A stretch of 46,745 bases of DNA from Acidobacteria bacterium RBG_13_68_16. Lineage in GTDB: Bacteria > Acidobacteriota > Thermoanaerobaculia > Thermoanaerobaculales > Thermoanaerobaculaceae. Of the stretch, positions 24,272 through 42,193 are shown one piece after another. Every line of letters begins with the position of its first letter. Position 1 is the first letter of the stretch. The notes under the pieces were generated by a model. That model did not search any database. It was not told the DNA's origin and was given only the letters and a program-made list of their open reading frames with translations. The stretch spans positions 34,641 to 81,385 of the forward strand of contig MEKI01000148.1 in NCBI GenBank assembly GCA_001766905.1, read 5' to 3'. The position numbers and the translations under genes were made by a program.

Positions 24272-24282
24272 GTCGCTCCTCC

Positions 24283-25182
24283 TCACGTGTAGATCAGCTC
24301 GGGCAGGTTGATGGCGTCCCAGTAAGAGAACACCGGCCCGTGCAGGCACGTGAACGTGTACCCAACGGCGCAGTGCCCACACTTTCCGACCCCGCACTCC
24401 ATGCGGCGCTCCAGGCTGAGGTAGATCCGATGGCGCCCGAAACCCCTTTCCACGAGCTTCTCCAGCATGAACTTGTAGAACACCGGCGGCCCGCAGGCCA
24501 CGGCGTAGGTGCGCGAGACGTCGAGCTCCACCAGGTCGAGGAGCTCCGTGACCACACCAACCCTCCCGGTCCACGGTTTTCCCTGGGTGCCGTCCACCGA
24601 AAGCAGGATCTGGGCGTCGCCGCGGCGCGAGAGCGACTCCAGCTCTTCGCGGAAGAGCACCTGCTCGGGCGAACGCGTGCCGTAGAGCAGCATCACCTTT
24701 CCGAAGCGGTCACGCTGGTCGATCAGGTACTGCAGGAGGCCCCGCAACGGCACCATGCCGAGGCCGCCCGCCACCAGGAGCACGTCCTGCCCCTCGAACA
24801 TCTCGACCGGGAATCCGTTGCCCAACGGTCCCCTGATCCCCACCTCGTCACCCTCGGTGATGTGGTCGAAGAGGTAGTTGGTGAGCGACCCGGTGCGCCG
24901 GATGCCGAGCTGGAAGACGCCACGCCTGGTCGGCGAGGAGGGCAGCGAGAACGGCCCCTCCCCGACTCCCAGCACTGAAAGCTCGACGAACTGCCCCGGT
25001 CGGAAGTTGAAGGAGTCGGCGAGGGTCGAGTCGGTGAACCGGAGATCGTAGAGCCGGATCTCCGTGGTCAGCTCGCGCACCCGCATGATGCGGGCCGGGG
25101 CGGGCACGAACGGGTTTGTGCCGGTCGCGAGCTTGCGCCGCGCGCTGCGGACCGGCGGGGCCTCAGGAATCGTGACGCTCAT
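24283..25182 (-). CDS. hydG: HydG-type FAD/NAD(P) diaphorase subunit (gamma), copy 1
   Basis: The 299-residue protein belongs to the ferredoxin-NADP reductase superfamily. FAD is bound at RPGQFVELSV and SLPSSPTRRG, NAD(P) at AGGLGMVPLRGLL and ACGPPVFYKF, and a C-terminal [2Fe-2S] site is formed by ECGVGKCGHCAVG plus the later Cys in TFTCLHGPVF. It exchanges electrons between NAD(P)(H) and the HydB/HydD relay. The start overlaps the stop of hydB as ATGA. A close relative is encoded at 29611 in the divergent operon. Confidence 0.94.
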   Translation of the reverse strand: MSVTIPEAPPVRSARRKLATGTNPFVPAPARIMRVRELTTEIRLYDLRFTDSTLADSFNFRPGQFVELSVLGVGEGPFSLPSSPTRRGVFQLGIRRTGSLTNYLFDHITEGDEVGIRGPLGNGFPVEMFEGQDVLLVAGGLGMVPLRGLLQYLIDQRDRFGKVMLLYGTRSPEQVLFREELESLSRRGDAQILLSVDGTQGKPWTGRVGVVTELLDLVELDVSRTYAVACGPPVFYKFMLEKLVERGFGRHRIYLSLERRMECGVGKCGHCAVGYTFTCLHGPVFSYWDAINLPELIYT

Positions 25183-26515: not shown

Positions 26516-26653
26516 GTGCCCCTCACGGCCTTTGCCGAGGCGTCGGCCGCGATCGACGCCCGCGGCCCCGACGGGTTGGGAAAGTACTGCGGTGTGACCT
26601 CGGCGCGCGGGTGGCCCGCCCGCGCCCCGCTGGGGGCGGCTGGCCGTGGATAG
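26516..26653 (+). CDS. Possible 45-codon leader gene before the MopB gene
   Basis: A GTG at 26516 stands eight bases after GAGGGG and opens 45 codons (VPLTAFAEASAAIDARGPDG...) that end at a TAG overlapping the first codons of the next gene (GTGGATAG). The overlap would let it couple translation of the weakly initiated GTG at 26646. I recognise no homology, and GC-rich DNA yields such frames by chance. Confidence 0.25.
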   Translation: MPLTAFAEASAAIDARGPDGLGKYCGVTSARGWPARAPLGAAGRG

Positions 26654-28556
26654 CGTTCTCACCACATGTCCGTTCTGTGCCTGCGGCTGTTCCCTCTACG
26701 TTCAGGCCTCCAATGGCCGCCCGACGGGTGTGGCCCCGAGCGAGAACCACCCTGTCTCGCGCGGAAGGCTCTGCGCCCGGGGGTGGAACGCGCATGAGGC
26801 GCCCGCCTGGGGCGACCGGCTAACGAGGCCGTTGGTCCGGCGTGGCGGCAGGCTCGAGCCCACGAGTTGGGAGAACGCCCTCGAGCTCGCGCGTGCGTCA
26901 CTTACCACGTTGATCGAGGCCGGCAAGGACGTGGGCGTGCTCGGCTCGGCCCGCGCCACCAACGAGGAGAACTACCTCGCGGTCCGGCTTGCGCGGGGCG
27001 CACTGCGGACCGGGAGCGTCGACTCCTTCCTGCGGGCCACGTACCAGCCTCTCGTGGACGGCATCGTCGCCGTCGCCAATGGGAGGGCTCCGGCGGGCAC
27101 CCTTGCGGACGTTGAGGCCAGCGATTTCATCCTGGTGCTGGAGGGCGACCTCGCGAACACCCACCCCCAGGCCGCCCACGCGGTCATCAAGGCGGTCAAG
27201 GCCGGCGCAAGGCTCGTCACCGTCGGGTGTGCTCGCACGCAGCTCGCACGCCTCGCGGCGCTCCACCTCCCTGCCCTCCCTGGGGAGCGGGGGTTCCTGG
27301 TCGCGGGCTTGGTTGCGGCGGCGGTCGCTGAACCGGAGCCGGCTGGCTCACCCGAACGACCCCTGCCGGGCTTCGAGGCGCTCAGGGGAAGCGTCGCCGC
27401 ACTCCCGGTGAGTGAACAGCTCCGCCAAGTCGCCAGGTGGCTCGCCCAGGCAACGCGTGCCGGCATTCTGGTGGGCCCCGATGGCGGCCCGCCCGAGCGC
27501 CTCGTGCGCGAGGGGACCGCTATCGCCACCCTCGCCGCGGTCACCGGCCACCTGGGGCGGCCGGGCTCGGCGCTCCTGCCCTTGCCGGCCCGCGGGAATC
27601 TGCGCGGCGCGTGCGAGATGGGGGTTATGCCGCACCTCCTCCCGGGGACGATCCCGCTCACCGAGGCGACGGCGGGCGCACGCCTGGCGCGGGTCTGGGG
27701 GCGCGCTCCGGCGTCCGCGCTCGGCCTCACCGCCGCGGGAATGCCCGGCCGCGTGGCCGGGCTGGTCGTCCACGCCGAGGACGTCCCTGCCGTGGCGCCG
27801 ACAGGTCAGGACGTGCTGGAGGCGCTCGGCCAAACCGAGTGCCTGGTCGTCCTGGATGCCTTTCTCACGCCCACGGCCAGGGCCGCCCACGTGGTCCTGC
27901 CGGTCGCGAGCTTTGCCGAAGGCGAGGGGACAATAACGAGCCTGGAGGGACGGGTGCAGCGGGTGCGCCCCGCCGCGCGGCCCCCGGGCGAGGCGAGGCA
28001 CGGCTGGCGGGCACTGTCGGAGCTGTCGGCCGCCCTGGGGCTTCCCTTCCCCTACCGTTCCGCCAACGACGTGCTTCGGGAGATCGGGGAGGTCGTTCCC
28101 GCGTACGCCGCGGTCGCCGACGGGACACGGGACGAGGCCTGGGGCACGTTCACCTCGCCCCCTTCCGACGACCGCGAGCCCACCTTGCGGCCTCTCGCCG
28201 CCGACCGCGTCGTTGCTGCGCTGCCCGCGGTGCTGGCGCTCGAGGGGGTGTTCGACTGGGGCAGCGATCCCCTGGTCAGTCTGTCCCCCACCCTGTGCAG
28301 GGACCACGTTTCCCGGCGCAAGCTGTACCCGCAAGGCCTCGTGCAGATGAGCAGGCGCGACGCGGACGGCCTCGGGGTGCGCCATGGGTGGTCCGTCCGC
28401 CTGGCGTCAGCCCACGGTGAGGTCGCGCTGCCGATCGTGTTATGCAACGAGCTTGAGCCCGGGGTCCTTCTGGTCCCCTACGCCTTCCGGGAGCGGGTCG
28501 CCGGGGTTCTGGGCGGACGAAGCGAGGTACCCGTGACGGCGGAGAAAGTGCAGTAG
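26646..28556 (+). CDS. FdhF-like molybdopterin protein lacking the catalytic (Se)Cys-His
   Basis: The 636-residue protein aligns with the formate dehydrogenase H fold. The [4Fe-4S] cysteines C8, C11, C15 and C43 are present, and the pterin-binding regions are recognisable (GNLRGACEMGVMPH, FLTPTARAAHVVLPVASFAEGEG). At the active site, the E. coli stretch around SeCys140-His141 aligns without gaps to SVDSFLRATYQPLVDGI, so the catalytic pair is T132-Y133 (codon ACG, not TGA). The electron-transfer Lys44 of FdhF is Arg. It therefore should not oxidise formate; a NuoG-like electron conduit or scaffold is more likely. It is the first gene of the operon with hydB2-hydG2 and the hyf genes. GTG 26646 has only a weak ribosome site. 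Confidence 0.85.
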   Translation: MDSVLTTCPFCACGCSLYVQASNGRPTGVAPSENHPVSRGRLCARGWNAHEAPAWGDRLTRPLVRRGGRLEPTSWENALELARASLTTLIEAGKDVGVLGSARATNEENYLAVRLARGALRTGSVDSFLRATYQPLVDGIVAVANGRAPAGTLADVEASDFILVLEGDLANTHPQAAHAVIKAVKAGARLVTVGCARTQLARLAALHLPALPGERGFLVAGLVAAAVAEPEPAGSPERPLPGFEALRGSVAALPVSEQLRQVARWLAQATRAGILVGPDGGPPERLVREGTAIATLAAVTGHLGRPGSALLPLPARGNLRGACEMGVMPHLLPGTIPLTEATAGARLARVWGRAPASALGLTAAGMPGRVAGLVVHAEDVPAVAPTGQDVLEALGQTECLVVLDAFLTPTARAAHVVLPVASFAEGEGTITSLEGRVQRVRPAARPPGEARHGWRALSELSAALGLPFPYRSANDVLREIGEVVPAYAAVADGTRDEAWGTFTSPPSDDREPTLRPLAADRVVAALPAVLALEGVFDWGSDPLVSLSPTLCRDHVSRRKLYPQGLVQMSRRDADGLGVRHGWSVRLASAHGEVALPIVLCNELEPGVLLVPYAFRERVAGVLGGRSEVPVTAEKVQ

Positions 28557-28568
28557 GAGACGCGGAGC

Positions 28569-29618
28569 ATGGCGAACGAGGCACGCACGATCTCCAAGCG
28601 CGACGTGGCGGGCTGGCTTGCGGCGCTGATGCGGCGCGCGGAGGTCATCGCGCCCGTTGCGGCCCACGGCGGCGACGTGGCGTTCGCGGCGATCTCCTCG
28701 CCGGAACAGGTGGTGTTCGATTTCCAGAACTCCCTGCACCCACCCAAGCAGTTCGTGCTCCCGCAGACCGACCCGCTCGTCGTGATCCGGCGCAATGGCA
28801 ACGGCATCGAGCTGGAGCCCGTGCGCGACGCCCACCCCCGGGTGATCTTCAACCTCCGCAGCTGCGACGCCAGGAGTCTCGCGTTCCTGTACCGCATGCA
28901 CGCTTCGGACCTCCCGGACGGCGCCTACCTCGCGCGCGCCGAGAACGTCACGCTGGTCAGCCTCGCCTGCACAGTCCCCTGCGAGCTCGGGTTCTGCACC
29001 TGTTGCGATGCTGGGCCCTTTCTGAAGGAGGGGACCGACGTCCAGCTCACCGATCTCGGCGAGCACTTGCTGGCCGAGCCGGGCACCGACAAGGGGCTTG
29101 CCATGCTCTCCGAGGCGGGCGATCTGTTCCGGCCCGCGCGCCCAGACGAGGAGCGTCGCCGGCTCGAGCTGGAGGAGGCGGCGAAGAGAGCCTTCGGAGC
29201 GGAGACCTGCCACTTCGCCTCCGCGATGCGCCGCGTCTCCACCGGTCGGGTGCCGGAGGAGCTCTGGGGCACGATGAGCGACTGGTGCCTGGAGTGCGGG
29301 GGCTGCAACTTCGTCTGCCCGACCTGCTATTGCTTTTCGGTCAAAGACATGAAGCAGGACGGCTCGTGGGTGCGCTGCCGAACCTGGGACTCGTGCCAGT
29401 ACCAGGCGTTCACCCTCGAGGCCTCCGGGCACAACCCGCGTGAGCGGCGCGCGGACCGCATCAAGCGGCGCTTCTTCCACAAGGTCTCGGCCCAGTACTA
29501 CCTGCGCGACGGGACGGTAGGCTGCGTGGGCTGCGGCCGATGCGTGAGGGTGTGCCTGGGCACCACCGACATGCCGGCAGTGGTGGAGGCGATCCGGAAG
29601 GGGGCGTGGAATGGATAA
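28569..29618 (+). CDS. HydB-type dicluster iron-sulfur subunit, copy 2
   Basis: The 349-residue protein has the same domain plan as the product of 25179-26198. CLECGGCNFVCPTCYCF and CVGCGRCVRVCLG bind two [4Fe-4S] clusters; the second lacks the usual proline after its last cysteine. The N-terminal domain has SCDARSLAFL and a cysteine group CTVPCELGFCTCC that could hold another centre. It begins 12 bases after the MopB gene and overlaps hydG2 by eight bases. It presumably joins the HydG-like flavoprotein to the MopB protein and the group 4 hydrogenase relay. Confidence 0.9.
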   Translation: MANEARTISKRDVAGWLAALMRRAEVIAPVAAHGGDVAFAAISSPEQVVFDFQNSLHPPKQFVLPQTDPLVVIRRNGNGIELEPVRDAHPRVIFNLRSCDARSLAFLYRMHASDLPDGAYLARAENVTLVSLACTVPCELGFCTCCDAGPFLKEGTDVQLTDLGEHLLAEPGTDKGLAMLSEAGDLFRPARPDEERRRLELEEAAKRAFGAETCHFASAMRRVSTGRVPEELWGTMSDWCLECGGCNFVCPTCYCFSVKDMKQDGSWVRCRTWDSCQYQAFTLEASGHNPRERRADRIKRRFFHKVSAQYYLRDGTVGCVGCGRCVRVCLGTTDMPAVVEAIRKGAWNG

Positions 29619-30432
29619 CCTCTTCCTCCCCCGGTTGGCGCGCATCGCTCTGGTGCGGGACGAAACCCCTGACACCAAGACGTTCGGGCTTCGCTTCCGC
29701 GACCCGGTCGATCAGCGTGACTTTCGCTTCCTCCCCGGCCAGTTCCTTGAGCTCTCGGTGTTCGGCTTCGGTGAGGCCCCGTTCTGCTTCGCGTCGAGCC
29801 CGACCCGTCCGGAGCTCGTCGAGGTCACGGTGCGGCGCACCGGGCAGCTCACCGATGCCCTTCACACCCTGGGGCCCGGGGACGAGGTCGGCCTCCGCGG
29901 CCCGTGCGGCAACGGCTTCGATCTGCCTTCGGCCCAGGGGAAGGACCTGTTGTTCATCGGCGGCGGGATCGGTCTGCCCCCGTTGCGGGGCTTGATCTGG
30001 AACGTCCTGGACGAGCGGGAGCGCTTCGGACGCGTGACCATCATGTACGGCGCCAAGACCCCGGCAGACCTGGTCTACAAGGACGAACTACAGGAGTGGG
30101 CCGCGCGCGGAGACGTCGAGCTGCTGGTGACCGTGGATCGTTCCAACAACGGCTGGACCGGCAACGTGGGTATGGTACCCACCCTGTTCGACAAGACCGA
30201 GTTGCGTCCGAAGACGACCCTGTCCTACGTGTGCGGTCCGCCCGTGATGATCAAGTTCGTGGTCCAGGACCTGTTGATGCGCGGCTTCGCGGACGACGCG
30301 ATCATCTCCACCCTCGAGCGGATGATGCAGTGCGGGGTCGGAAAGTGTAACCACTGCGCGATCGGGCACCGCTACGTGTGCCGCGACGGGCCGGTTTTCA
30401 CCTTCCGGCAGATCAAGGAGCTGGTCGAGTGA
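29611..30432 (+). CDS. HydG-type FAD/NAD(P) diaphorase subunit, copy 2
   Basis: The 273-residue flavoprotein parallels the product of 24283-25182. FAD binding is at LPGQFLELSVFGFGEAPF, NAD(P) binding at IGGGIGLPPLRGLI and VCGPPVMIKF, and the [2Fe-2S] site at QCGVGKCNHCAIG with Cys in RYVCRDGPVF. All nucleotide-binding motifs are intact. In this operon it replaces the electron-input module of formate hydrogenlyase, so NAD(P)H (or NAD(P)+) is the likely electron partner of the membrane hydrogenase. Confidence 0.92.
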   Translation: MDNLFLPRLARIALVRDETPDTKTFGLRFRDPVDQRDFRFLPGQFLELSVFGFGEAPFCFASSPTRPELVEVTVRRTGQLTDALHTLGPGDEVGLRGPCGNGFDLPSAQGKDLLFIGGGIGLPPLRGLIWNVLDERERFGRVTIMYGAKTPADLVYKDELQEWAARGDVELLVTVDRSNNGWTGNVGMVPTLFDKTELRPKTTLSYVCGPPVMIKFVVQDLLMRGFADDAIISTLERMMQCGVGKCNHCAIGHRYVCRDGPVFTFRQIKELVE

Positions 30433-30950
30433 CGCTCGCCGACGAGCTGGCCGCGCGGTTGTCGGGCAACGTCGTCGTGGTCGGGGTCGGCAACCCCCTC
30501 AGGGGCGACGATGCGGCCGGCTGCCTGGTCGCCCGCCGGCTGCACGGAACACCGGGCGTGCGCGTGATCGAGGCCGAGGAGGTGCCCGAAAGCTTCGTGG
30601 GCGACATCGCGGCCGCGGTCCCCGACGCGGTGGCGCTGGTGGATGCGGTTGACCTGGGACGCGAGCCGGGTGCCGTGGCGGTCCTGGAGAAGGAACAGGT
30701 GGCGAAATACGCACCTACCACCCACCGTATGCCGCTCTCGCTCGTGATGGAGGTCGCGCACCGCAGAACCGGCGCCGACGTCTTCCTGATCGCGGTTCAG
30801 CCGTCGCGCCTGGCTTTCGGCGCGGCGGTGAGCCCGGAAGTGTCGGAAAGCGTGGAACTGGTGGCGGCCCTGCTCTCACGGCTCATCCGGGCGCGAGAGG
30901 CTGCTGCGGCCCGCGACGGGTTCAGGGCGGCAGCTGAGGGGCCGCCATGA
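30429..30950 (+). CDS. hycI: HycI-like [NiFe] hydrogenase maturation protease
   Basis: The 173-residue protease of the group 4 type has GVGNPLRGDDAAG (first acidic ligand), VDAVDLGREPG (second) and the His in THRMPLSLVM, which is close to the HycI motif. GTG 30429 overlaps the hydG2 stop as GTGA; the longer reading starting at 30378 would lie inside hydG2. Its expected substrate is the 30-residue tail after R535 of the large subunit at 34432-36129. Confidence 0.9.
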   Translation: MTLADELAARLSGNVVVVGVGNPLRGDDAAGCLVARRLHGTPGVRVIEAEEVPESFVGDIAAAVPDAVALVDAVDLGREPGAVAVLEKEQVAKYAPTTHRMPLSLVMEVAHRRTGADVFLIAVQPSRLAFGAAVSPEVSESVELVAALLSRLIRAREAAAARDGFRAAAEGPP

Positions 30951-32407
30951 CGGCGGTCCTCCTTCTTATGGTGATCGTACCCGCCCTCGGTGCGGTTCTC
31001 GCGGGCGTGCTCGGCAAACGCCGCGCCCCGGTGGTCGCGGTTGCGGCGGCTGCGGTGGTGGCGGTGCTCGCGGTGTGGAGCGTGGCTACGAGTTTCGGGA
31101 CCTCCTACCGCGACGCCGTGGGGACGCTGCCGTGGCTAACCGGGGCGGTGGACAGCCCGGTGTTCGGTGTCCTCCTCGACCCGCTTGGGTCGGTGCTGCT
31201 GCTTGTGGCGACCCTGATCGGGTTCCTCACGGTGCTCTACTCCGCCGCCTACATGGGCGAGCGCAACCGGGACCACGCCGTGGTGCTCTCCCAGCAGGGG
31301 CCGTACTACTTCCGCCTCCTCCTTTTCCTGGCCAGCATGGTGGGTGTCGCCCTGGCACCCAACTTCCTACAGCTCTTCCTGTTCTGGGAGCTGACGACGG
31401 TCTGCTCGTGGTCCCTCATCGCGTTCTACGGGAACGAGAAGAGCCTGCGGGCAGGGTTCAAGGCGCTGCTGATCACCCACATCGGAGGCCTTTTCTTCCT
31501 GCTCGCGGTGCTGATCCTGTTCGTGCAGACGCGCTCGTTCGCGTTCGGCGCCCTCGCACAGCTTCCCGAGTCGCTCCGGCGCTGGGTGTTCCTGTTCCTG
31601 ATGATCGCGGCGTGGGCGAAGGCTGCGCAGGTCCCGTTCCACACCTGGCTCCCCGACGCGATGGAGGCGCCGACACCGATCAGCGCGTACCTGCACGCCG
31701 CCGCGATGGTCAAGGCGGGCGTCTTCCTGATGGCGAGGGCCGTCAGCTCGGGGTGGGCGATGCCGCCCGGGCTCGGGATGCTCATGGGCGCGATGGCGCT
31801 CGTGACGATGTTCCTGGCGCTGTCGTACTACTTCGTCCAGGACGACCTCAAGCGCCTCCTCGCGTACTCCACGATCGCCCACCTCGGGTACGTGCTGCTC
31901 GGCGTCGCTCTTGGCGCCCTCGGCTCGATCACCGGGTTTCGTGGTGGTGTGTTGCACATCGCCTGCCACGGTTTCTCAAAGGCTACGCTCTTCCTGTGCG
32001 CCGGCGCGATCGTCTACGCCACCGGCACGCGCAGCATCTCCGCCCTCGGAGGGCTGGCGCGCAGCATGCCGCTCACCGCGGTGGCCTTCTTCGTGGGACT
32101 CCTGGCGGTGACGGGGGTCCCGCCGTTCGCATGCTTCTGGAGCAAGTTCATGTTGCTCGAGGGCGCCATGAAGCTCGGCGGCATCGTCGGGCCGGTGCTG
32201 GTGGGGCTCGTGCTGGTGGAGAGCCTGATCTCGTTCGGTTGGATGCTCCGCGTCGGCCAGAAGATCTTCCTGGGGCCGGTGACGCCCGTGGCCGCCGTCA
32301 ACAGCGACCCGCCGTGGCCGATGAGCGTAACGCTGGTGGCCCTGATGATCGGGTGCCTCGTGATCCCGGCGGTGGCGATGCCGCTGGTGCAGCTGATCGG
32401 AAGGTGA
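30947..32407 (+). CDS. hyfD: HyfD/MrpD-like proton-antiporter membrane subunit
   Basis: The 486-residue protein has about 13-14 helices of the Proton_antipo_M family, near the length of E. coli HyfD. The key charged residues are in place: a Glu in LFLFWELTTVCSW, a Lys in AAWAKAAQVPFHTWLPDAM, and the signature PTPISAYLHAAAMVKAG. It starts within the stop of the protease gene (ATGA). It is one of three antiporter-type subunits in the operon, which is the number found in proton-pumping Hyf/FHL-2 complexes rather than in the simpler FHL-1. Confidence 0.9.
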   Translation: MTAVLLLMVIVPALGAVLAGVLGKRRAPVVAVAAAAVVAVLAVWSVATSFGTSYRDAVGTLPWLTGAVDSPVFGVLLDPLGSVLLLVATLIGFLTVLYSAAYMGERNRDHAVVLSQQGPYYFRLLLFLASMVGVALAPNFLQLFLFWELTTVCSWSLIAFYGNEKSLRAGFKALLITHIGGLFFLLAVLILFVQTRSFAFGALAQLPESLRRWVFLFLMIAAWAKAAQVPFHTWLPDAMEAPTPISAYLHAAAMVKAGVFLMARAVSSGWAMPPGLGMLMGAMALVTMFLALSYYFVQDDLKRLLAYSTIAHLGYVLLGVALGALGSITGFRGGVLHIACHGFSKATLFLCAGAIVYATGTRSISALGGLARSMPLTAVAFFVGLLAVTGVPPFACFWSKFMLLEGAMKLGGIVGPVLVGLVLVESLISFGWMLRVGQKIFLGPVTPVAAVNSDPPWPMSVTLVALMIGCLVIPAVAMPLVQLIGR

Positions 32408-32411
32408 CGAC

Positions 32412-34424
32412 TTGAGCACGGTTTCTCTGCTCGGTTTGAGCGCGGCGCTGCTGCTGGCGGGGGCGCTGGTGAGCCTCGTACTTGGCGGGAGGAGGAAGGC
32501 CAGCGGGTGGGCCAGCGTAGGCTTCGTGGGCGCGGCCGGCGTCGCGCTCTGGGCCGTCGTGGTGCGCACATTCTCGGCAGGACCCGACCCGGAGGTGACG
32601 CTGCTGTCGTTGCCCGCCATCGGTGCGGGCTTCGTCGTGAGCGTGGACTGCCTGAGCGCGATCTTCCTCGCGATCACGGGGACCATCGGGTTCCTCACCA
32701 CGCTGTACTCGGTCGAGTACATGACGCGCTACCGCACCGACAGCGTCGCAAAGTACTACCCCTTGCTGCAGCTGCTGTTCGCCGGGATCGTCGGCGTCGT
32801 GGCGACCGGCGACTTTGTCTTCTTCCTGGTGTTCTGGGAGCTCATGACGTTCGCGTCGTTCTTCCTCGTGACGTTCGAGCGCGAGGTTCGAGCAAACCAG
32901 CGCGCCGGCTTCAAGTACTTCGTTGTCAACCAAGCGGCGACGTTTGGGATGATCGCCGCGGCGCTCATCCTGTGGACCAGATCAGGCTCCTTCCGCTTTT
33001 CCGCGATGCGCGACGCGCTGGGCGGGCTGGTGACGACCCAGCCGGCCCTCGCCCACCTCGTGCTGTTTCTCTTCTTCATGGGGTTTGCCACCAAGGCAGG
33101 GATCCTCCCCATGGGCGACTGGCTCCCCGATGCTTACCCGGCCGCGCCCAGCGGCGCGACTGCGGCTTTCGGCGGGACCATGACCAAGCTCGGGGTCTAC
33201 GGCCTGCTGCGCGTGTTCCTCTACTTCCTGCCGCTCTCACCGGTTACACGGACCTGGGGGCTGGCGATCGCGCTGGCAGGCGCGGTCAGCTTGTTCGTTG
33301 GGACGCTCACCGCCCTCAAGCAGGACGACATCAAACGGCTGATGTCGTTCCACGTCATCGGCCAGGTCGGGTACATGTTCCTCGGTATCGGGCTGGGCCT
33401 GTTCTTCCTGCCCTCGAACCCGACCCTTGCCGCGCTGGGGCTGCTGGCCGGCACGTTCCACATGATCAACCACTCGCTTTACAAATCCTGCCTGTTCCTG
33501 GGAGCCGGGGCCGTTGCCTTCAGGACCGGCACCCGGAGTCTCTCCGCGCTCGGGGGGCTGCGGGCGTTCATGCCGGCCACCGCGATGTATGCGCTGACCG
33601 CCGCCCTCGCCATCGCCGGCGTCCCGCCGCTCAACGGGTTCGCCAGCAAGTGGCTGATGTACGCGACCGCGATCCTGGGTGGAAAGGCCTTCCCCCTCTT
33701 CGCGGTCCTCGGCATCGTCGCGATGTTCATCTCGCTGGTGACGCTCGCCTCATTCCTCAAGTACCTGGGCAGCGCGTTCCTGGGACCGCCCTCACCGCTG
33801 CGGGGAGTCCGCGAGGTGCCGGCGAGCATGCTCGTCCCCCAAGCGTTCCTGGCGCTGGCCTGCGTGGTGTTCGGCCTCGTCCCTGCCTGGCCGCTCGCGT
33901 TTGTGCACCGGGCGCTTACGGGGCTGGCGTCCGCCGCATCCTTGCCGAGGCTGGAGTCCCTGCTCGGCGACGGGCCCGGGCTCCAGGCGGGCTCGGACCT
34001 GGTCCGCGTGGCGTTCTGGGCGCCGCTGCCGATCGCGGCGGCCCTCGCGCTGCTCGGCCTCGCCGCGTACTTCCTGATCCAGCGCGCCGCGGGCGCCCCC
34101 GTCCGCAACGTCCCTGTCTGGACGTGCGGCGAGGAGGCGGGGCCGGAGCTGTCGCGGTACCCCGCTACCAGCCTCTACCTCCCGTTCAAGCGGGCGTTCC
34201 AGGGGATCTACCCGAGCATCCATTTGAGGGCGCCGGCGTTCCCTTCCTGGCTCCGGCGCGCCTTCGACCTCGATGCCTGGCTCTACCTGCCGGTCGCGCG
34301 CGCGGTCGAAGGCGGAGCGAGGGCGGTGAGCAGGACCCATGTCGGGATTCCGCAGGTCTACCTGTTGTGGATAGTGGTGGGGGCCATCGCGGTCGTCGGG
34401 ATCGTGCTGGCGTTTCTCGGTTGA
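32412..34424 (+). CDS. hyfB: HyfB/NuoL-like proton-antiporter membrane subunit
   Basis: The 670-residue protein, about the size of E. coli HyfB, has a NuoL-type core (VFWELMTFASFFLVTFE, MGFATKAGILPMGDWLPDA, LKQDDIKRLMSFH) and a long C-terminal extension (about 500-670) with extra helices, which in this family reaches along the membrane arm. TTG 32412 follows GGAAGGTGACGAC and lies four bases after the stop of the previous gene. Ion specificity cannot be read from the sequence. Confidence 0.9.
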   Translation: MSTVSLLGLSAALLLAGALVSLVLGGRRKASGWASVGFVGAAGVALWAVVVRTFSAGPDPEVTLLSLPAIGAGFVVSVDCLSAIFLAITGTIGFLTTLYSVEYMTRYRTDSVAKYYPLLQLLFAGIVGVVATGDFVFFLVFWELMTFASFFLVTFEREVRANQRAGFKYFVVNQAATFGMIAAALILWTRSGSFRFSAMRDALGGLVTTQPALAHLVLFLFFMGFATKAGILPMGDWLPDAYPAAPSGATAAFGGTMTKLGVYGLLRVFLYFLPLSPVTRTWGLAIALAGAVSLFVGTLTALKQDDIKRLMSFHVIGQVGYMFLGIGLGLFFLPSNPTLAALGLLAGTFHMINHSLYKSCLFLGAGAVAFRTGTRSLSALGGLRAFMPATAMYALTAALAIAGVPPLNGFASKWLMYATAILGGKAFPLFAVLGIVAMFISLVTLASFLKYLGSAFLGPPSPLRGVREVPASMLVPQAFLALACVVFGLVPAWPLAFVHRALTGLASAASLPRLESLLGDGPGLQAGSDLVRVAFWAPLPIAAALALLGLAAYFLIQRAAGAPVRNVPVWTCGEEAGPELSRYPATSLYLPFKRAFQGIYPSIHLRAPAFPSWLRRAFDLDAWLYLPVARAVEGGARAVSRTHVGIPQVYLLWIVVGAIAVVGIVLAFLG

Positions 34425-34431: not shown

Positions 34432-36129
34432 ATGGTGACGATCGCCCAAGCGGCTGCAAACAGGACCGTGGACCTCGTACGGGAGAGAGTCGGCGCAATG
34501 CTCGTCGCCGCGACCCAGCCGCATTCCGACACCCTGCGCCTCCAGGTGGACAAGCGGGTGGTGCGGGCCGCCGCCGGGGTGCTGGCCGATGAACTCGGGG
34601 CCCGTTTCATGATCACGACCGGTATCGACAGGCGTGAGCTGGGCGGCGGCTTCGGGATCGTCCACCTCTTCTCCCTCGACCGCGAGCACCTGTTCGTGCT
34701 GCTGGACTGCGCGGTCGCCGCGGACGACGAGCACATCGACTCCATTACCCCGGTCGTGCCCGGGGCGAACTGGGCGGAGCGGGAGTTCCGCGACTCGGTG
34801 GGCGTGCACCCGGACGGCCACCCCGACCCACGCCGCCTGTTGCTCGCCGACGACTGGCCGGACGGCGTATGGCCGCTGCGGCGCGACGTCGCCTACAACC
34901 TTCAGCCGCCCCCCGCGGACGACATGCGGCCGCCCCTGCGGGAGCCGCCTACCGGCGCGAGCGTCGTGACCATGGGGCCGTTTTTCCCGGTGCTCGAGGA
35001 GCCCTCCCAGTGGCGCCTCTTCGTCGAGGGGGAGACGATCGTGGGCTGCGACTACCGCGGCTTCTACAACCACCGCGGCATCGAGAAGCTCGGCGACAGC
35101 GTCCTCACGTACAACCAGATCCCTTACCTCGCGGAGAGAATCTGCGGGATCTGCGGTTTCATCCACTCCACCTGTTACTGCCAGGCGGTGGAGAAGGCGG
35201 CCGGCATCGAAGTGCCGCGCAGGGCCCGTTACATCCGGACCCTCATGCTCGAGCTCGAGAGGATCCACTCCCATCTGCTGTGGCTCGGCATCGCCGGTCA
35301 CATCGTCGGGTTCGACACCCTGCTCATGCAGACCTGGCGCATCCGCGAGCCCGTGATGTGGCTCTCCGAGGAGATCAGCGGGAACCGCAAGACATACGGC
35401 ATGAACACGATCGGCGGCCTGCGGCGTGACCTCTCGCCCGACCTCGGCAGGAAGGTGCTCGACGTGCTGGAGGAGGTCGAGAGGGAGTCGCTGGCGGTGC
35501 GCGACGCCATCGTCGGGGACGGCACGCTGATGGCGCGGACCAAAGACGTCGGGGTGCTGACCAATCAGACGGCGAGGAGCGTGTGCGTGGTCGGGCCACC
35601 GGCCCGCGCCTCGGGCGTGCCCATCGATGCCCGCGTGGACCACCCGTACGCGGCCTACGACGAGGTGCCGGTTCGGATCGCGGTCCACCAGGAGGGGGAC
35701 ACCTGGGCCCGCGTGCTGGTGCGGGTCGAGGAGCTGCTGGAGTCGATCCGGCTGGTCCGGGAGGCGCTGGCCGCCATGCCGGAAGGGCCGGTCCTTACCG
35801 AGGTCAAGGAGGAGATCCCGCCAGGGCGCGTCGGCGTCTCGGTCGTGGAGGCACCGCGCGGCGAGGCCGTGCACATGGTGGAGACTGGTGGGGACAACCG
35901 CCCCTACCGGTGGCGGGTGCGGGCCCCGACGTACCCGAACCTGCAGGCGATGCCCACGATGGTGGCCAACAACACCATAGCCGACGTGCCGATCGCCCTC
36001 GGGAGTCTGGATCCGTGCTTCTCCTGCACCGAGCGGGTGGAGGCGGTGGACGTGACCACCCGGCGCGTCACCGTCTATACGCGACAGGACCTGCTGCGCA
36101 TCTCGAGGTCCGCGGCGGTGACGCCATGA
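34432..36129 (+). CDS. hyfG: Group 4 [NiFe] hydrogenase large subunit (NuoC-NuoD fusion)
   Basis: The 565-residue protein fuses a NuoC-like domain (about 1-150) to a NuoD-like catalytic domain. Unlike complex I or Ehr proteins it keeps all four nickel cysteines: C238/C241 in ERICGICGFIH and C529/C532 in DPCFSCTER. A 30-residue tail follows R535, the position where HycI-type proteases cut. The conserved stretch YNHRGIEKLG near residue 213 lies along the proton path. The ATG has GAGGAG before it. It is a genuine hydrogenase of the Hyc/Hyf class facing the cytoplasm on the membrane arm. Confidence 0.96.
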   Translation: MVTIAQAAANRTVDLVRERVGAMLVAATQPHSDTLRLQVDKRVVRAAAGVLADELGARFMITTGIDRRELGGGFGIVHLFSLDREHLFVLLDCAVAADDEHIDSITPVVPGANWAEREFRDSVGVHPDGHPDPRRLLLADDWPDGVWPLRRDVAYNLQPPPADDMRPPLREPPTGASVVTMGPFFPVLEEPSQWRLFVEGETIVGCDYRGFYNHRGIEKLGDSVLTYNQIPYLAERICGICGFIHSTCYCQAVEKAAGIEVPRRARYIRTLMLELERIHSHLLWLGIAGHIVGFDTLLMQTWRIREPVMWLSEEISGNRKTYGMNTIGGLRRDLSPDLGRKVLDVLEEVERESLAVRDAIVGDGTLMARTKDVGVLTNQTARSVCVVGPPARASGVPIDARVDHPYAAYDEVPVRIAVHQEGDTWARVLVRVEELLESIRLVREALAAMPEGPVLTEVKEEIPPGRVGVSVVEAPRGEAVHMVETGGDNRPYRWRVRAPTYPNLQAMPTMVANNTIADVPIALGSLDPCFSCTERVEAVDVTTRRVTVYTRQDLLRISRSAAVTP

Positions 36130-37043
36130 ACACGGGTCTTCTCTGGACCGTGGGTCTCGCCGTCCTGAGTGTCGCGCTCGCGCTGCTGCTGGCGCCGCTC
36201 TACGAGGGGCTGATGCGCAAGCTCAAGGCCGCGATCCACTCGCGCATCGGGCCGCCGATCACGCAACCGTACCTCGACCTCTTCAAGCTGCTCGGCAAGG
36301 AGGATCTGAGGACCGCAGGCGGGTTGCTGTACACGGCCGCGCCCGCCCTCAGCCTGGGATCCGTCCTGCTGCTGGCACTGCTGGTGCCGATGGGCGCGCG
36401 GCCCCCGTTCGCCTTCGCGGGCGACATCGTCGTGCTGCTGTACGTCTCCGCGATCAGCGCGGTGCTGCTCATGCTGACGGCGTTCGGCAGCGGGAGCCCC
36501 TACGCCTCCGTCGGCAGCTCGCGCGAGATGATGATGCTGCTCTCGGTGGAGCCCGTCATGGTGGTCGCGCTGGTGGTCGGCGCCCTGAAGGCCGGGACAC
36601 TTGCCACGGGCGACATCATCGCCTGGCAGCTCGAGCATGGGCCAACCATCAGCATGGCGATCGCCGGCATCGCCTTCTTCCTCGCGCTGCAGGCGCAGGC
36701 CGGCAAGCTGCCGTTCGACATCCCAGAGGCGGACCAGGAGATCATGGGCGGTCCCCTGATCGAGCAGAGCGGCCCCCGCCTAGCGCTGTTCCGGTGGGCG
36801 GCGTGGTCGAAGCAGTTCGTCCTCGCGGTGCTGTTGGTGGAGGTCTTCCTCCCCTGGCCCGGGACCGGCGTCTTCGCCCTCGACCTCGTCCTCACGCTGG
36901 TGAAGGCGTTCGTGGTGCTGGTGGTGGTCGCCCTCGTGGATGTGGTCAACCCTAGGCTGCGCATCGACCAAGCCATGCAGTACTACCTGCGGGTCGCGTT
37001 CTCTTCGATCGCGGCGCTGGCTTTCGCCGTGATCGGGATGTAG
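36126..37043 (+). CDS. hyfC: HyfC/NuoH-like membrane subunit
   Basis: The 305-residue protein with about eight helices anchors the hydrogenase module to the membrane arm. NuoH-type motifs are RIGPPITQPYLDLFKLLGKE near residue 40 and the acidic loop LPFDIPEADQEIMGG near 200, which couples electron transfer to ion movement. The ATG overlaps the stop of the large subunit gene (ATGA); the open frame extends upstream only as a shadow. Confidence 0.94.
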   Translation: MNTGLLWTVGLAVLSVALALLLAPLYEGLMRKLKAAIHSRIGPPITQPYLDLFKLLGKEDLRTAGGLLYTAAPALSLGSVLLLALLVPMGARPPFAFAGDIVVLLYVSAISAVLLMLTAFGSGSPYASVGSSREMMMLLSVEPVMVVALVVGALKAGTLATGDIIAWQLEHGPTISMAIAGIAFFLALQAQAGKLPFDIPEADQEIMGGPLIEQSGPRLALFRWAAWSKQFVLAVLLVEVFLPWPGTGVFALDLVLTLVKAFVVLVVVALVDVVNPRLRIDQAMQYYLRVAFSSIAALAFAVIGM

Positions 37044-37052: not shown

Positions 37053-37502
37053 GTGCTCCTGGCGAAGCTGCGCGAGGCGTGGATCTGCCTGAAGGCGGGG
37101 CGCGTCACGCTCCCCTACCCGTTCGCCCCCCACGACCCGGCAGAGGGCTTCCGAGGCAAGATCACCCTCGACCCCGACCTCTGCTTCGGCTGTGGCGGGT
37201 GCGCCAACGTCTGCCCCGCCGGCGTGATCGTGGTGAACGACACCGGCCAGCACACCAGGTTGCTCGAGTTCTTCTGGCGACGCTGCACGTACTGCGGTCG
37301 CTGCGAGGAGGTCTGCCCGGAGGGCGCGATCACGCTCTCACAGCAGTTCGAGACCGCGACGGACAAGCCCGAGGACATGTACATGCGCCTGGAGGTGTTC
37401 ATGGGGCCGTGCCAGCGCTGCGGCAGGTGCTTCACCCCGCCGACGCCTCTGGAGCGCATGATGCTGACGGGCTTCCGGAACGGGAACGGGGGGCGAGCGT
37501 GA
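37053..37502 (+). CDS. hyfH: HyfH/NuoI-like 2x[4Fe-4S] ferredoxin subunit
   Basis: The 149-residue protein has two complete [4Fe-4S] motifs (CFGCGGCANVCP and CTYCGRCEEVCP) that link the input module to the small subunit. A further CQRCGRCF near the C-terminus could bind zinc or a cluster. GTG 37053 stands behind AGGAGG. Confidence 0.94.
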   Translation: MLLAKLREAWICLKAGRVTLPYPFAPHDPAEGFRGKITLDPDLCFGCGGCANVCPAGVIVVNDTGQHTRLLEFFWRRCTYCGRCEEVCPEGAITLSQQFETATDKPEDMYMRLEVFMGPCQRCGRCFTPPTPLERMMLTGFRNGNGGRA

Positions 37503-38173
37503 ACACCCAGCCGCTCAACGCGCAGCTCATCGAGACCCTCAGCATGGTCATGGTGATCACCTCTGTGGCGGCGGTTGAGATCCGCCGGCTGCGCCTGGCG
37601 GCGGTGGCCTATTCGGCGCAGGCACTCTTGATCGTGGGGCTGTTGCTGAGCTTTGCCGCCGTGAACCCTTCCCTTTACTGGTGGGCAGGCACGGCGTTCC
37701 TCACCAAGGCGGTCCTTACGCCGTGGTTCCTGTTCCGGTTCATCGGCAAGACACAGGAGCGCGAGCTTCCACCCCTGATCGGCTTCGCTCCCTCGGTGAT
37801 GGTGGCGGCGGCCCTGATGATCGGCTTCTACCGCCTCACCCACAGCCAGATCGCGCTGCTGGCGCCCACCGAGATGGCGCAGCAGGAGGTGTTCAGGACG
37901 AACCTCGCGGTGGCCTCCACGGTGTTCGCCCTCGGGCTCTACTGCGTGCTGACGCGGCGAGACGCGATCAAAACGGTGATCGGGCTGTGCCTGCTCGAGA
38001 ACGGCGTGCACCTCTCCCTCGTGAGCCTCGCGCCGGAGCTCTCCGAGACGGCGCTCTTCGGAGTCGCTACAGAGGTGGTGGTGACCGTCTACCTATTGCT
38101 GTACGTCATCGCCGGTGTGAGGCAGGAGTTCGGCACAACGGACACGCTCGCGCTCAAGGAGTTGCAGTGGTAG
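37499..38173 (+). CDS. hyfE: HyfE-like membrane subunit (NuoK-related)
   Basis: The 224-residue protein has six to seven helices and is similar in length to E. coli HyfE. The C-terminal part (TVIGLCLLENGVHLSLVSL) carries the membrane glutamate of the NuoK/MrpC family. GTG 37499 overlaps the stop of the ferredoxin gene (GTGA). It sits between the ferredoxin and HyfF genes, joining the antiporter subunits to the hydrogenase end. Confidence 0.9.
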   Translation: MNTQPLNAQLIETLSMVMVITSVAAVEIRRLRLAAVAYSAQALLIVGLLLSFAAVNPSLYWWAGTAFLTKAVLTPWFLFRFIGKTQERELPPLIGFAPSVMVAAALMIGFYRLTHSQIALLAPTEMAQQEVFRTNLAVASTVFALGLYCVLTRRDAIKTVIGLCLLENGVHLSLVSLAPELSETALFGVATEVVVTVYLLLYVIAGVRQEFGTTDTLALKELQW

Positions 38174-38201
38174 GGCGGGCGCGCGGTTCGGGGAAGGCGT
38201 G

Positions 38202-39728
38202 ATGAGCGAGCAGATCGTGACGGTGACGTCGAGCCTGCCGGCGGCGGCGTTCCTGGTCCCGCTGGCCGCGGGCGCGCTGGTCTTTCTCGGCAGAAAACTG
38301 CAGCGTGCCTTCTGGCAGGGGACCGCCTTGCTCGCCTCTGGCATCACGTTCCTCATCGGCCTGCGGATGTCGGGCCAGGTGCTGAGCGGGGCCGTCCTGA
38401 CCACGTGGGGAAACGAGCTGCGGGTGGACGCCCTCTCCGCCCTGATGGTCGTTGTGATCGGCGGCGGCGGTTTCCTCGCCACGCTGTACTCGGTACGCTA
38501 CGTGACGCGGCCCGGGCTGCTCACGAGGGCCGGGGCTGAGGCCACGGCCCGCCGGATGCCGACGTTCTACGGACTGGTCCTGTGGTTCCTCGCCACGATG
38601 GTCTGGGGCTGCGTCACCAATAACATCGTGATGCTGTACGTGGCCGTGGAGGCCACGACGCTCACATCGGGGCTGCTGGTGGCGTTCTACTGGGACCGGC
38701 GCGCGCTGGAGGCCGGCTACAAATACCTGATGCTCCTGACCATCGGCATCACGTTCGCGCTGTTGGGCTGCGTGCTCCTCTACGCGTCCGCGGCCGCGAC
38801 CGGGCAGATCGACGGCGGCAAGGCGCTGCTCATCTCCGAGGTGAGGCACGTGGCGCACCTCATCCCGGCAGGGACCGCACTGCTGATCGTCGCGTTTCTG
38901 GTCATCGGTTTCGGCACCAAGGCGGGGATCGCGCCGTTCCACCCCTGGCTGCCCGACGCCCATGCCGAGGCCCCGACGCCCGTGTCGGTCCTGCTCTCGG
39001 GCGTGATGATCAAGATGGCGATGTACGCCCTTGCCCGCACCGTAAGTATCTTCTACCCCAACTGGCCGCAGCTGACCGTGTTCGCCGTGGCGCTGGGTAC
39101 CTTCACCATGGTGCTCGGGATCGTTATCGCGCTCACCCAGGACGACCTCAAGCGCCTGCTCGCCTACTCCTCGGTGAGCCAGATGGGGTACGTGCTGGTG
39201 GGTCTTGGGCTCGGGACCTACCTTGGCTGTTACGGGGGCCTGTTTCACCTCCTCAACCACGCGATTTACAAGGCGCTCCTCTTTATGTGTGTGGGAGCCG
39301 TGATCTACGCCACCGGGATTCGGAAGGTGAGCGAGCTGGGCGGCCTTGCCAGGAGCATGCCGATCACGAGCGCGTGCTTCTTCCTCGGTGCGCTGGCGAT
39401 TGCAGGATTCCCTCCCCTCAACGGGTTCATGAGCAAACTCACGGTCTACCTGGCTCTCGCCAAGGCCGGTCTATGGTGGGCGGTCGTGATCGCGCTCGCG
39501 GCCAGCGTCCTCACGATGGTCGTGCTGGTGCGGGCGGCGTACACCGTGTTCTGGGGCAGCCCGCAAGGCGCGGCGCTCGCCCAGCTCCAGGTTCGCGAGG
39601 TCCCTGTCGTCATGTGGGTCCCGATGGTGATCCTCGCCGGGGCGTGCGTGGTGCTCGGGATCTTCCCCCAGGCACCTTTCCCGCTGCTGGACAAGGCGGC
39701 GGCCGTTCTTGCGACGGTTGGGAGGTGA
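38202..39728 (+). CDS. hyfF: HyfF-like proton-antiporter membrane subunit
   Basis: The 508-residue Proton_antipo_M protein has conserved LYVAVEATTLTSGLLVAFY (key Glu), GFGTKAGIAPFHPWLPDAH (key Lys), APTPVSVLLSGVMIKMA and LTQDDLKRLLAYSSVSQMG. It is the third antiporter-type subunit of the operon. GTG 38199 directly before the ATG is a possible alternative start; GGGAAGG fits the ATG better. Confidence 0.92.
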   Translation: MSEQIVTVTSSLPAAAFLVPLAAGALVFLGRKLQRAFWQGTALLASGITFLIGLRMSGQVLSGAVLTTWGNELRVDALSALMVVVIGGGGFLATLYSVRYVTRPGLLTRAGAEATARRMPTFYGLVLWFLATMVWGCVTNNIVMLYVAVEATTLTSGLLVAFYWDRRALEAGYKYLMLLTIGITFALLGCVLLYASAAATGQIDGGKALLISEVRHVAHLIPAGTALLIVAFLVIGFGTKAGIAPFHPWLPDAHAEAPTPVSVLLSGVMIKMAMYALARTVSIFYPNWPQLTVFAVALGTFTMVLGIVIALTQDDLKRLLAYSSVSQMGYVLVGLGLGTYLGCYGGLFHLLNHAIYKALLFMCVGAVIYATGIRKVSELGGLARSMPITSACFFLGALAIAGFPPLNGFMSKLTVYLALAKAGLWWAVVIALAASVLTMVVLVRAAYTVFWGSPQGAALAQLQVREVPVVMWVPMVILAGACVVLGIFPQAPFPLLDKAAAVLATVGR

Positions 39729-39735
39729 CGCGGCG

Positions 39736-40242
39736 ATGCTGAAGGGGCTGTGTCAGAAGTCATTCTGCAAGGCGCTGTGGGTCTACCACGCGAACACGGG
39801 CGCCTGCAACGGCTGCGACATCGAGGTGATCAACGTCCTCACTCCCTACTACGATGCGGAGCGCTTCGGTATCAAGCTGGTCGGCTCCCCGAGACACGCG
39901 GATGTGCTGCTGGTCTGCGGCCCGGTTACGCGTCAGGTCGCGCCGGCGCTGAAACGGCTCTACGACGCCGTCCCGGCGCCGAAGCTGGTTTTCGCCATCG
40001 GCTCGTGTGCAACCGGTGGCGGATGCTGGTTCGACAGCTACAACGTGCTCGGCGGCGCGGACAAGGTGGTCCCCGTGAACATCTACGTTCCCGGGTGCCC
40101 GCCGCGGCCGGAGGCGATCCTGCACGGCGTCGCAGTCGCCCTCGGGCTTGCTCCCAAGAAAGTGGCACCGGAGACGTTCAGGCAGGAAACTGTCGATGAG
40201 CTTGCGCAGGGCAGGTCGGCGCAGAACGGGGGGCGGCCATGA
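39736..40242 (+). CDS. hyfI: Group 4 hydrogenase small subunit (NuoB-like)
   Basis: The 168-residue subunit carries a single [4Fe-4S] cluster (N2 type) with C24 and C27 in ACNGCDIE, C91 in IGSCATGG and C121 in VPGCPPRP. It hands electrons directly to the nickel site of the large subunit. ATG 39736 lies ten bases after GGAGG; an in-frame start at 39709 would overlap hyfF. Its stop overlaps the next start (ATGA), tying the response regulator to the operon. Confidence 0.95.
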   Translation: MLKGLCQKSFCKALWVYHANTGACNGCDIEVINVLTPYYDAERFGIKLVGSPRHADVLLVCGPVTRQVAPALKRLYDAVPAPKLVFAIGSCATGGGCWFDSYNVLGGADKVVPVNIYVPGCPPRPEAILHGVAVALGLAPKKVAPETFRQETVDELAQGRSAQNGGRP

Positions 40243-40664
40243 GCACGGCGAAGGTCCTCACCGTTGATGACGATCGTGACCTTGTCGAGACCCTCCGGAT
40301 CGTGCTGGAGAGCGCAGGGTACGAGGTGATTGCGGCGCATGACGCCGAAGCGGGGCTCGAGAAGGTCCGCTCTGTGAGACCCGACCTGATCCTGCTGGAT
40401 GTCATGATGCCGAGCGCCACCGAGGGTTTTCACTTCGTCTGGAAGCTGCGCAATCTCGAAGGCGAGTACTTCCGGGCGGTCCCGGTGATTCTGCTGACGG
40501 CGATCCACGAGAAGACCGAGCTGCGCTTCTACCCGGACTCCGGCGACGGCAGCTACAAAGCCGGCGAGTACCTGCCGGTGCAGGACCTCGTGGACAAGCC
40601 GGTGGATCCAAAGGACCTCCTGGCGCGGGTCGCAAGGGTGCTCTTCGCGTCGCGGAAGTCGTAA
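40239..40664 (+). CDS. Response regulator coupled to the group 4 hydrogenase operon
   Basis: The 141-residue single receiver domain has D10-D12, phosphoacceptor D54 (LILLDVMMP), T87 and K120 (LVDKPVDP). As in the regulator at 2875, an insertion before the KP motif ends in EYLPVQDLVDKPV. It is translationally coupled to the small subunit gene and followed 62 bases later by a kinase gene. Without an output domain it may act on a partner protein, possibly on the hydrogenase complex itself. Confidence 0.9.
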   Translation: MSTAKVLTVDDDRDLVETLRIVLESAGYEVIAAHDAEAGLEKVRSVRPDLILLDVMMPSATEGFHFVWKLRNLEGEYFRAVPVILLTAIHEKTELRFYPDSGDGSYKAGEYLPVQDLVDKPVDPKDLLARVARVLFASRKS

Positions 40665-40726: not shown

Positions 40727-42193
40727 TTGGCCAGGCCGAGCATACTTCCGGCCGCCGCCGAGCTGGCCGAGCGCATCGGCTGGCTGATACGGCTGCGCTG
40801 GATCGCCGTGATTGGCGTTGTGTGCACCCTCGAGGCCGCACACCGCATCCTCGGCATCCACTTACCCCTTGGGCCCCTCTACAGCGTGACGGCCAGCCTC
40901 GCGCTCTACAACCTAGTCCTGACCGTGGTGGCGACGCGGCTCCAGCGTGCGCAGCGTCTCGGGGCCGACCGACCCCCGGGCGCCGTCTCCCACGCCGTGC
41001 TCAGGGTCCTCTGGGGGATGCACCTGGACCGTGAGGCCCCGGAAGCGGCGGCGCTTGCCAACATCCAGATCTCCATTGACCTGTTCCTGCTGGCGGCGCT
41101 GCTGCACTTCTCCGGAGGAATCGAGAACCCGTTCATCATCTTCTTCATCTTCCACATCATCATCGCGAGCATCCTGCTCTCGCCGCGCGCCACCTACGTC
41201 CAGGCGACGCTGGGCTTTGCCCTCATCACCGCGGTCAGCTTCGCCGAGTGCTTCGGGTTCCTCGAGCACTACCCCCTCGCCGGGATGTGGACGGCGGAGG
41301 CATACCGAAATCCGATCGTGGTCGGGGTCGAGCTGCTCGTGCTCGGCGCCACGCTCTACCTGTCGGTCTACATGGGCACGACGATCGCCAGGCAGCTGCG
41401 ACGGCGAGAGAGAGAGATCGCTCTCCTGTCCCGCGACCTCGCCGAGAAAGCTGGAAACCTCGAGGTCGCGTACCGGAAGGTGCGCCAGACCGAGCGCACC
41501 AAGTCGCAGTACATGCGGAAGGTGGCCCACGAGCTCCGCGGCCCGCTCGGAACGATCAAGACGGCGCTTCAGGTCGTCCTGGACGGCCTGGTAGGCGAGG
41601 TTCCGGAGCGCTCGCGCGACCTGATCTCCCGCGCCGAGCGGCGGGCCGGGGAGCTCGCGGAGCTGACCAAGGACCTGCTGGTCCTGTCCCGCGCCAGGGA
41701 GGGCAGGCTGGCGACCGAGATGGTTCCGGTCAAGCCGGACGAGCTCATCAGAACCGTCGTCGAGGAGTTGCGCCCGGCTGCCGTCCAGGCCGGCGTTGAG
41801 CTTTCCGTCAAGATCGCTGCAGATCTCGGCGAATTGCAGGGTGACCCGGCGGGTTTGCAGCAGCTGCTCGGCAACCTTGTAAGTAACGGTATCCGCTATA
41901 CGCCACGCGGGGGCTCCGTCGAGGTCCGCGTGCGCCGCACCGCTCACTACCTGCGCATCGAGGTGGAGGACACCGGCGTCGGCATACCCGCGGAGGACAT
42001 CCCACGGCTCTTCGAGGACTTCTTTCGCTCGACGTCCGCCCGCGAGCGGGTACCCGAGGGAACCGGACTTGGCCTTCCGATCGTCAAGGCCGTTGCGGAG
42101 CAGCACGGCGGCACGGTGTCGGTGGAAAGCGAGCCCGGCAGGGGCGCCCGCTTTGCGGTGGATCTACCGCTTCCCGACGCGACGAGCACCTAG
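40727..42193 (+). CDS. Six-TM (RegB-like) sensor histidine kinase
   Basis: The 488-residue kinase has an N-terminal membrane domain of about six helices (residues 20-220) without a large external loop, a short coiled linker, HisKA with H268 (KVAHELRGPL) and an ATPase domain with NLVSNGIRYT, DTGVGI and GTGLGLP. This resembles RegB/PrrB-type kinases that sense quinone or redox state through the membrane, but no RegB redox cysteine is evident. TTG 40727 with GGAGG five bases upstream is the start. It is the last gene of the group 4 operon and the likely donor for the regulator at 40239. Confidence 0.88.
   Translation: MARPSILPAAAELAERIGWLIRLRWIAVIGVVCTLEAAHRILGIHLPLGPLYSVTASLALYNLVLTVVATRLQRAQRLGADRPPGAVSHAVLRVLWGMHLDREAPEAAALANIQISIDLFLLAALLHFSGGIENPFIIFFIFHIIIASILLSPRATYVQATLGFALITAVSFAECFGFLEHYPLAGMWTAEAYRNPIVVGVELLVLGATLYLSVYMGTTIARQLRRREREIALLSRDLAEKAGNLEVAYRKVRQTERTKSQYMRKVAHELRGPLGTIKTALQVVLDGLVGEVPERSRDLISRAERRAGELAELTKDLLVLSRAREGRLATEMVPVKPDELIRTVVEELRPAAVQAGVELSVKIAADLGELQGDPAGLQQLLGNLVSNGIRYTPRGGSVEVRVRRTAHYLRIEVEDTGVGIPAEDIPRLFEDFFRSTSARERVPEGTGLGLPIVKAVAEQHGGTVSVESEPGRGARFAVDLPLPDATST

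Follow-up and report, generated by a model that had tools for sequence, protein, structure and literature searches.

In true formate hydrogenlyases, the formate dehydrogenase (FDH) FdhF is adjoined by a ferredoxin subunit, HyfA or HycB. Complex I has no Ni-Fe site, and cluster N7 of its MopB-type subunit, NuoG, is held to lie off the electron path. Among the group 4 [NiFe]-hydrogenases, E. coli HyfG is listed as group 4a (PMC7811984), and HydDB describes group 4f as "formate-coupled (putative)" with its role undetermined (PMC5037454). A survey of the MopB superfamily lists Nqo3 (NuoG) with the lineages that do not have the cofactor, puts the number of times catalysis was lost at two, and reports many cytoplasmic-FDH matches that have no Cys (PMC10100899).

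The window considered here, the whole 46.7-kb stretch of DNA analyzed, contains a tight operon in which a MopB gene comes first, followed by HydB2, HydG2, HycI, HyfD, HyfB, HyfG, HyfC, HyfH, HyfE, HyfF, and HyfI (Table 1). The Hyf core, subunits B to I, is 27–44% identical to its E. coli namesakes, with HyfG at 42%. In HyfG, both CxxC pairs that supply the four Cys ligands of the Ni-Fe site are intact, and the protein extends into a C-terminal tail, which fits a site that would be matured by a HycI-type protease. HyfA is absent from the window operon, and HydB and HydG occupy its place. HydG2 has FAD-binding, NAD(P)-binding, and DHODB-type Fe-S domains by Pfam, and HydB2 has many cysteines of its own. 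Both proteins match the NCBIfam sulfhydrogenase models (HydB2, 155 bits with a cut-off of 690; HydG2, 247 bits with a cut-off of 395) and those of the anaerobic sulfite reductase subunits AsrA/AsrB, all below the curated cut-offs, and by these scores appear to be relatives, not members, of sulfhydrogenase HydB/HydG. A recent copying from the HydB/HydG of the neighboring group 3b hydrogenase is ruled out, as the two pairs lie on distant branches of the tree.

Table 1. Coordinates of the hydrogenase loci and of the altered MopB codons within the window.
Feature	Coordinates	Strand	Remarks
Hydrogenase-2-like [NiFe]-hydrogenase with NrfD-type subunit	8127-13109	-	
Group 3b-type NADP hydrogenase with its own HydB/HydG	22122-26198	-	Divergent from the MopB operon
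MopB subunit, predicted catalytically dead FdhF-like protein	26646..28556	+	Cys 8/11/15/43 for [4Fe-4S] kept
ACG TAC = Thr132-Tyr133, codons at FdhF Sec140-His141	27039..27044	+	ACG 27039-27041, TAC 27042-27044
HydB2, Fe-S subunit, relative of sulfhydrogenase beta / AsrA	28569..29618	+	Fer4_22
HydG2, FAD/NAD(P)-binding and Fe-S subunit, relative of sulfhydrogenase gamma / AsrB	29611..30432	+	Profile matches
HycI-like hydrogenase maturation protease	30378..30950	+	Profile matches
HyfD-like antiporter-type membrane subunit	30947..32407	+	Profiles, E. coli comparison
HyfB-like antiporter-type membrane subunit	32412..34424	+	Profiles, E. coli comparison
HyfG, group 4 [NiFe] large subunit	34432..36129	+	30 kDa and 49 kDa domains; Ni-Fe Cys 238, 241, 529, 532
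HyfC-like (NuoH-like) membrane subunit	36111..37043	+	
HyfH-like ferredoxin subunit	37053..37502	+	
HyfE-like membrane subunit	37502..38173	+	
HyfF-like antiporter-type membrane subunit	38199..39728	+	
HyfI-like (NuoB-like) small subunit	39709..40242	+	
Receiver-only response regulator	40239..40664	+	Conserved at operon end
Histidine kinase	40727..42193	+	Conserved beside the response regulator

Three different [NiFe]-hydrogenases are thus encoded within the window, the MopB operon (26646-40242, +) and the two minus-strand loci at 8127-13109 and 22122-26198. Elsewhere in the window are a protein of 1410 aa in which NPDVS-type pentapeptide repeats form a long run (17182-21414, -), a pair of long proteins of the epimerase family, encoded on opposite strands, that are perhaps paralogues (1282-2784, +; 5349-6956, -), and a 208-aa protein that looks heme oxygenase-like by eye and has no NCBIfam match at 1e-20 (42344-42970, +).

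The MopB reading frame has a GTG start, 636 codons for amino acids, and no internal stops, and its product matches the Pfam families Molybdop_Fe4S4, Molybdopterin, and Molydop_binding. The top NCBIfam model is that of the FDH alpha subunit (TIGR01591), which is matched at 302.6 bits, far short of the 666 bits set as the curated cut-off. Residue positions are numbered on E. coli K-12 FdhF (U140, H141, K44, R333, Q335); a gapless alignment places Thr132-Tyr133 of MopB at Sec140-His141 and Arg45 at Lys44, and phmmer alignments to formate dehydrogenases of the PDB give the identical register. These assignments, together with retention of the four [4Fe-4S] cysteines, are as the first-pass annotation of this DNA had read them from the sequence. 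That annotation also discounted Sec recoding and misreading of TGA, both of which are indeed ruled out by the ACG codon; the genome of the window has a SelB match over cut-off, and Sec was therefore not lost for want of machinery. Beyond the Sec-His pair, Arg333 is replaced by Pro and Gln335 by Arg in MopB, and the FDH-invariant residues D478, R581, H585, and K679 are lost both in this protein and in its clade. A Cys that an alternative alignment might bring to the metal, which the same annotation had named as a route to activity, was not found in MopB, where the remaining cysteines are only residues 13, 195, 323, 399, 551, and 600.

The AlphaFold model of MopB is a confident full FDH fold, C-terminal domain included (pLDDT 91.7, pTM 0.93), and a Foldseek search with this model returns formate dehydrogenases at the top, including 1fdi, 1aa6, and the formate hydrogenlyase structure 7z0t, with query TM scores of 0.83–0.87. 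Of the columns that are invariant in the FDH controls, MopB keeps 67/135; the proportion is 7/9 in the cluster domain and 5/19 in the C-terminal part. Some pterin binding is possible because these 67 columns are kept. With the Sec/Cys ligand, His141, Arg333, and Gln335 all gone, MopB is predicted to have the fold of FdhF but to be no formate dehydrogenase, as had been proposed.

The gene order MopB-HydB-HydG-HycI-Hyf was found in further Acidobacteriota and in Gemmatimonadota; other Acidobacteriota families have a compact form of the operon with one antiporter subunit, and the Desulfobacterota forms are divergent. A search of open literature found no description of this operon type. We gathered 38 MopB sequences, of which 37 have a readable site and nearly all were seen in the MopB-HydB-HydG-Hyf order (the contigs of L031 and L034 stop before the neighboring genes, and L138 is without the N-terminal part). 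The four cluster cysteines are present in 37/37 relatives, and Arg stands at Lys44 in 37/37; neither Arg333 nor Gln335 is kept in any (0/37 each). The Sec position is occupied by Gly in 17 sequences, Thr in 4, Ser in 4, Ala in 3, Ile in 2, Trp in 2, and Glu, Gln, Val, His, and Cys in one each. In L125, which has the single Cys, His141 is Tyr and Arg333 is Pro. The Thr-Tyr pair thus appears to be one draw from an unconstrained site, and the notion that it is a conserved new active site is ruled out by this drift.

The same variability bears on whether MopB still binds Mo/W-bis-PGD and catalyzes a reaction other than formate oxidation, with another protein ligand or none, a form of the earlier suggestion that it “catalyses something new.” The full predicted fold, C-terminal domain included, and the 67/135 retained columns would suit such an enzyme, yet enzymes with a conserved ligand do not show at least 11 different residues at the ligand position, and Arg333, Gln335, Asp478, Arg581, His585, and Lys679 are all lost in the window clade. 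We regard this explanation as very improbable.

Identity to the relatives is about 50% for MopB and 70–80% for HydG2 and most Hyf subunits. Compared with its nearest relative (78% identical), MopB has a dN/dS of 0.25, and values of 0.07–0.22 were obtained for the five other subunits compared; MopB is therefore under purifying selection, though it is the least constrained of the compared subunits. The intact reading frame and this dN/dS rule out a pseudogene. A recently decayed FDH within a working formate hydrogenlyase would likewise present absent catalytic residues, but the reading frame is intact and under purifying selection, HyfA is missing with HydB/HydG in its place, and relatives from three phyla are in the same state. 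Homologues that keep Cys/Sec-His in the same gene order, which the first-pass annotation had named as the sign of mere decay, were not found; the lone Cys of L125 stands without the His. Recent decay is refuted by these relatives.

Control operons were compared to ask which gene content the site loss accompanies. In Bacillota formate hydrogenlyase operons with FdhF, HyfA, and the Hyf core, Sec-His, Arg333, and Lys44 are kept in 5/5. In FDH-HydB-HydG modules without this Hyf (L032, L033, and L036, from Desulfobacterota/Myxococcota MAGs), Cys-His, Arg333, and Lys44 are kept in 3/3, and no HyfG match was found in the genomes of these modules. In the loci sampled, loss of the site accompanies HydB/HydG plus Hyf jointly and neither alone. 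The occupation of the HyfA position by HydB/HydG, and the association of this swap with active-site loss in the sampled loci, had no place in the earlier account. HyfG operons without MopB, in Acidobacteriota (L095/L096) and Nitrospirota, are uninformative on this point.

The Nitrospirota operons (e.g., L166/L177 and L167/L178) encode a Hyf-type hydrogenase in the order HyfG-H-D-B-C-E-F-I-HycI, and no MopB, HyfA, or HydB/HydG was recognized near them. Among other HyfG-type large subunits, an in-frame TGA is found at an N-terminal Ni-Fe ligand Cys in six Desulfobacterota loci (L117-L122, from G813, G983, G815, G961, G853, and G889) and one of Acidobacteriota (L059, from G163). The motif reads RIUGIUG, with both positions affected, in five, RIUGICG in L117, and RICGIUG in L059, and the Cys residues of the C-terminal DPCFSCTER are kept. 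SelB is over cut-off in G983, G815, G961, and G889 and not in G813 or G853; an Rfam search found no RNA element near the in-frame TGA of L117. Selenocysteine may possibly occupy both N-terminal Ni-Fe ligand positions of such subunits.

In terms of descent, the window clade (13 rows) has a support of 100. With NapA and FdnG as the root, the tree separates the active FDHs from a group, supported at 97, that unites NuoG, other dead MopBs, and every Hyf-linked MopB; this grouping has a support of 95 after removal of the FDH-invariant columns. Both values come from trees with long branches and a quick search. On these trees, the Hyf-linked MopBs and NuoG may have lost the active site in a single common event. 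A further proposal would trace both the NuoG of complex I and the dead MopB of the Hyf-linked operons to a common ancestor, a formate dehydrogenase already inactivated; the NAD(P)H-linked group 4 hydrogenase would then be a surviving offshoot of the stage at which the NADH-input arm of complex I was added to a hydrogenase-type membrane arm. We hold this proposal to be doubtful. The dead MopB family would belong among the Cys-less cytoplasmic-FDH matches of the superfamily survey, now with a specific gene context.

Together, these observations make it probable that the operon encodes a Hyf-type group 4 [NiFe]-hydrogenase with a rebuilt electron-input arm, in which MopB would be a NuoG-like scaffold and/or relay, not an enzyme, and whose activity would be that of a membrane H2:NAD(P)+ oxidoreductase and not of a formate hydrogenlyase. 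The NuoG-like relay of the first-pass annotation is thereby favored, widened to relay or scaffold, with the cluster cysteines kept among homologues and the site drifting. The NAD(P)H module HydB/HydG would have taken over from formate input as MopB turned into scaffold or relay, so that the position of active FdhF and its HyfA/HycB ferredoxin would be filled by HydG with its FAD and NAD(P)H site, by the Fe-S protein HydB, and by MopB with its single [4Fe-4S] cluster. We infer an electron route with NAD(P)H as partner, ion coupling, and a MopB free of pterin: electrons would pass reversibly from NAD(P)H through HydG, HydB, the MopB [4Fe-4S] cluster and/or HyfH, HyfI, and HyfG to H2, coupled to ion movement via HyfB/D/F.

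HydB could feed HyfH directly, bypassing MopB. In its strict form this would make MopB a structural plug only, its [4Fe-4S] cluster off-path like N7 of NuoG. Consistent with a plug are the many cysteines of HydB2 and the faster divergence of MopB than of its neighbors in both identity and dN/dS; the invariance of the four cluster cysteines in 37 sequences, however, is more than a pure scaffold needs, and the “and/or” of the scaffold/relay explanation already covers this variant. We consider the plug possible, if somewhat unlikely.

The NAD(P)H specificity of the HydB/HydG arm would follow from domain homology, and relatives of these proteins also serve sulfite reductases and sulfhydrogenases, which counts against the NAD(P)H reading. 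The matches of HydB2/HydG2 to sulfhydrogenase and AsrA/AsrB models, all below the curated cut-offs, could point to a complex that bifurcates or to another partner for HydB/HydG, such as sulfur, sulfite, or ferredoxin. HydG2 nonetheless has flavin- and NAD-binding domains, and the conserved operon contains no gene for a siroheme or other terminal enzyme, so we judge this alternative unlikely.

A separate source of formate electrons was also considered. The other MopB matches examined in the genome of the window, which is 91% complete, are also without Cys/Sec, and therefore no separate FDH is seen feeding the hydrogenase; because of that completeness, one beyond the assembly is possible. FDH-like proteins of 876-1269 aa without Cys/Sec and with extra N-terminal domains occur in Acidobacteriota (L048-L050, L056, L003), of which L056 and L003 belong to the genome of the window.

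From its FdhF-like gene, an operon of this type will probably be annotated as a formate hydrogenlyase, an assignment that would be wrong in at least three phyla. With no formate site left and an NAD(P)H module in place, the predicted metabolism shifts from formate splitting to a reversible, probably ion-coupled, exchange between H2 and NAD(P)H. The case stands near complex I, with a formate dehydrogenase apparently turned wire or scaffold beside a Ni-Fe site, and the dead MopB bears on how complex I gained its NADH arm.

Compared with formate hydrogenlyase/hydrogenase-4 (E. coli FdhF plus HyfA-I, [NiFe] group 4a), the window operon has in common the Hyf core B-I with intact Ni-Fe ligands and opens with an FdhF-fold subunit, whereas the catalytic residues of that subunit are lost and HyfA is replaced by HydB and HydG. 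Like group 4f, it is a group 4 hydrogenase for which formate coupling would be inferred from an FdhF-like gene, but here that subunit is predicted to be incapable of serving as the formate site. The NAD(P)-linked FDH-HydB-HydG modules (L032, L033, L036) share the MopB-HydB-HydG order and have related HydB/HydG, in contrast keeping Cys-His, Arg333, and Lys44 in genomes without a HyfG match. The group 3b NADP-hydrogenase/sulfhydrogenase HydBGDA also uses HydB and HydG homologues as its NAD(P)H arm, but is soluble, has neither MopB nor membrane arm, and has its HydB/HydG on a distant branch. As in NuoG (Nqo3), the window MopB is without a Mo/W ligand, retains its [4Fe-4S] cysteines, and has Arg at FdhF Lys44. 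It differs from NuoG in having no N-terminal ferredoxin-like domain, the reading frame beginning at the MopB [4Fe-4S] motif; the NuoG profile is matched only from position 213, and by score the protein is nearer to FDH than to NuoG (303 vs. 131 bits). As in complex I, MopB stands beside NuoB/C/D/H/I-like subunits and a putative NAD(P)H module, with HydB/HydG rather than NuoE/NuoF as the input and a Ni-Fe site instead of quinone chemistry.
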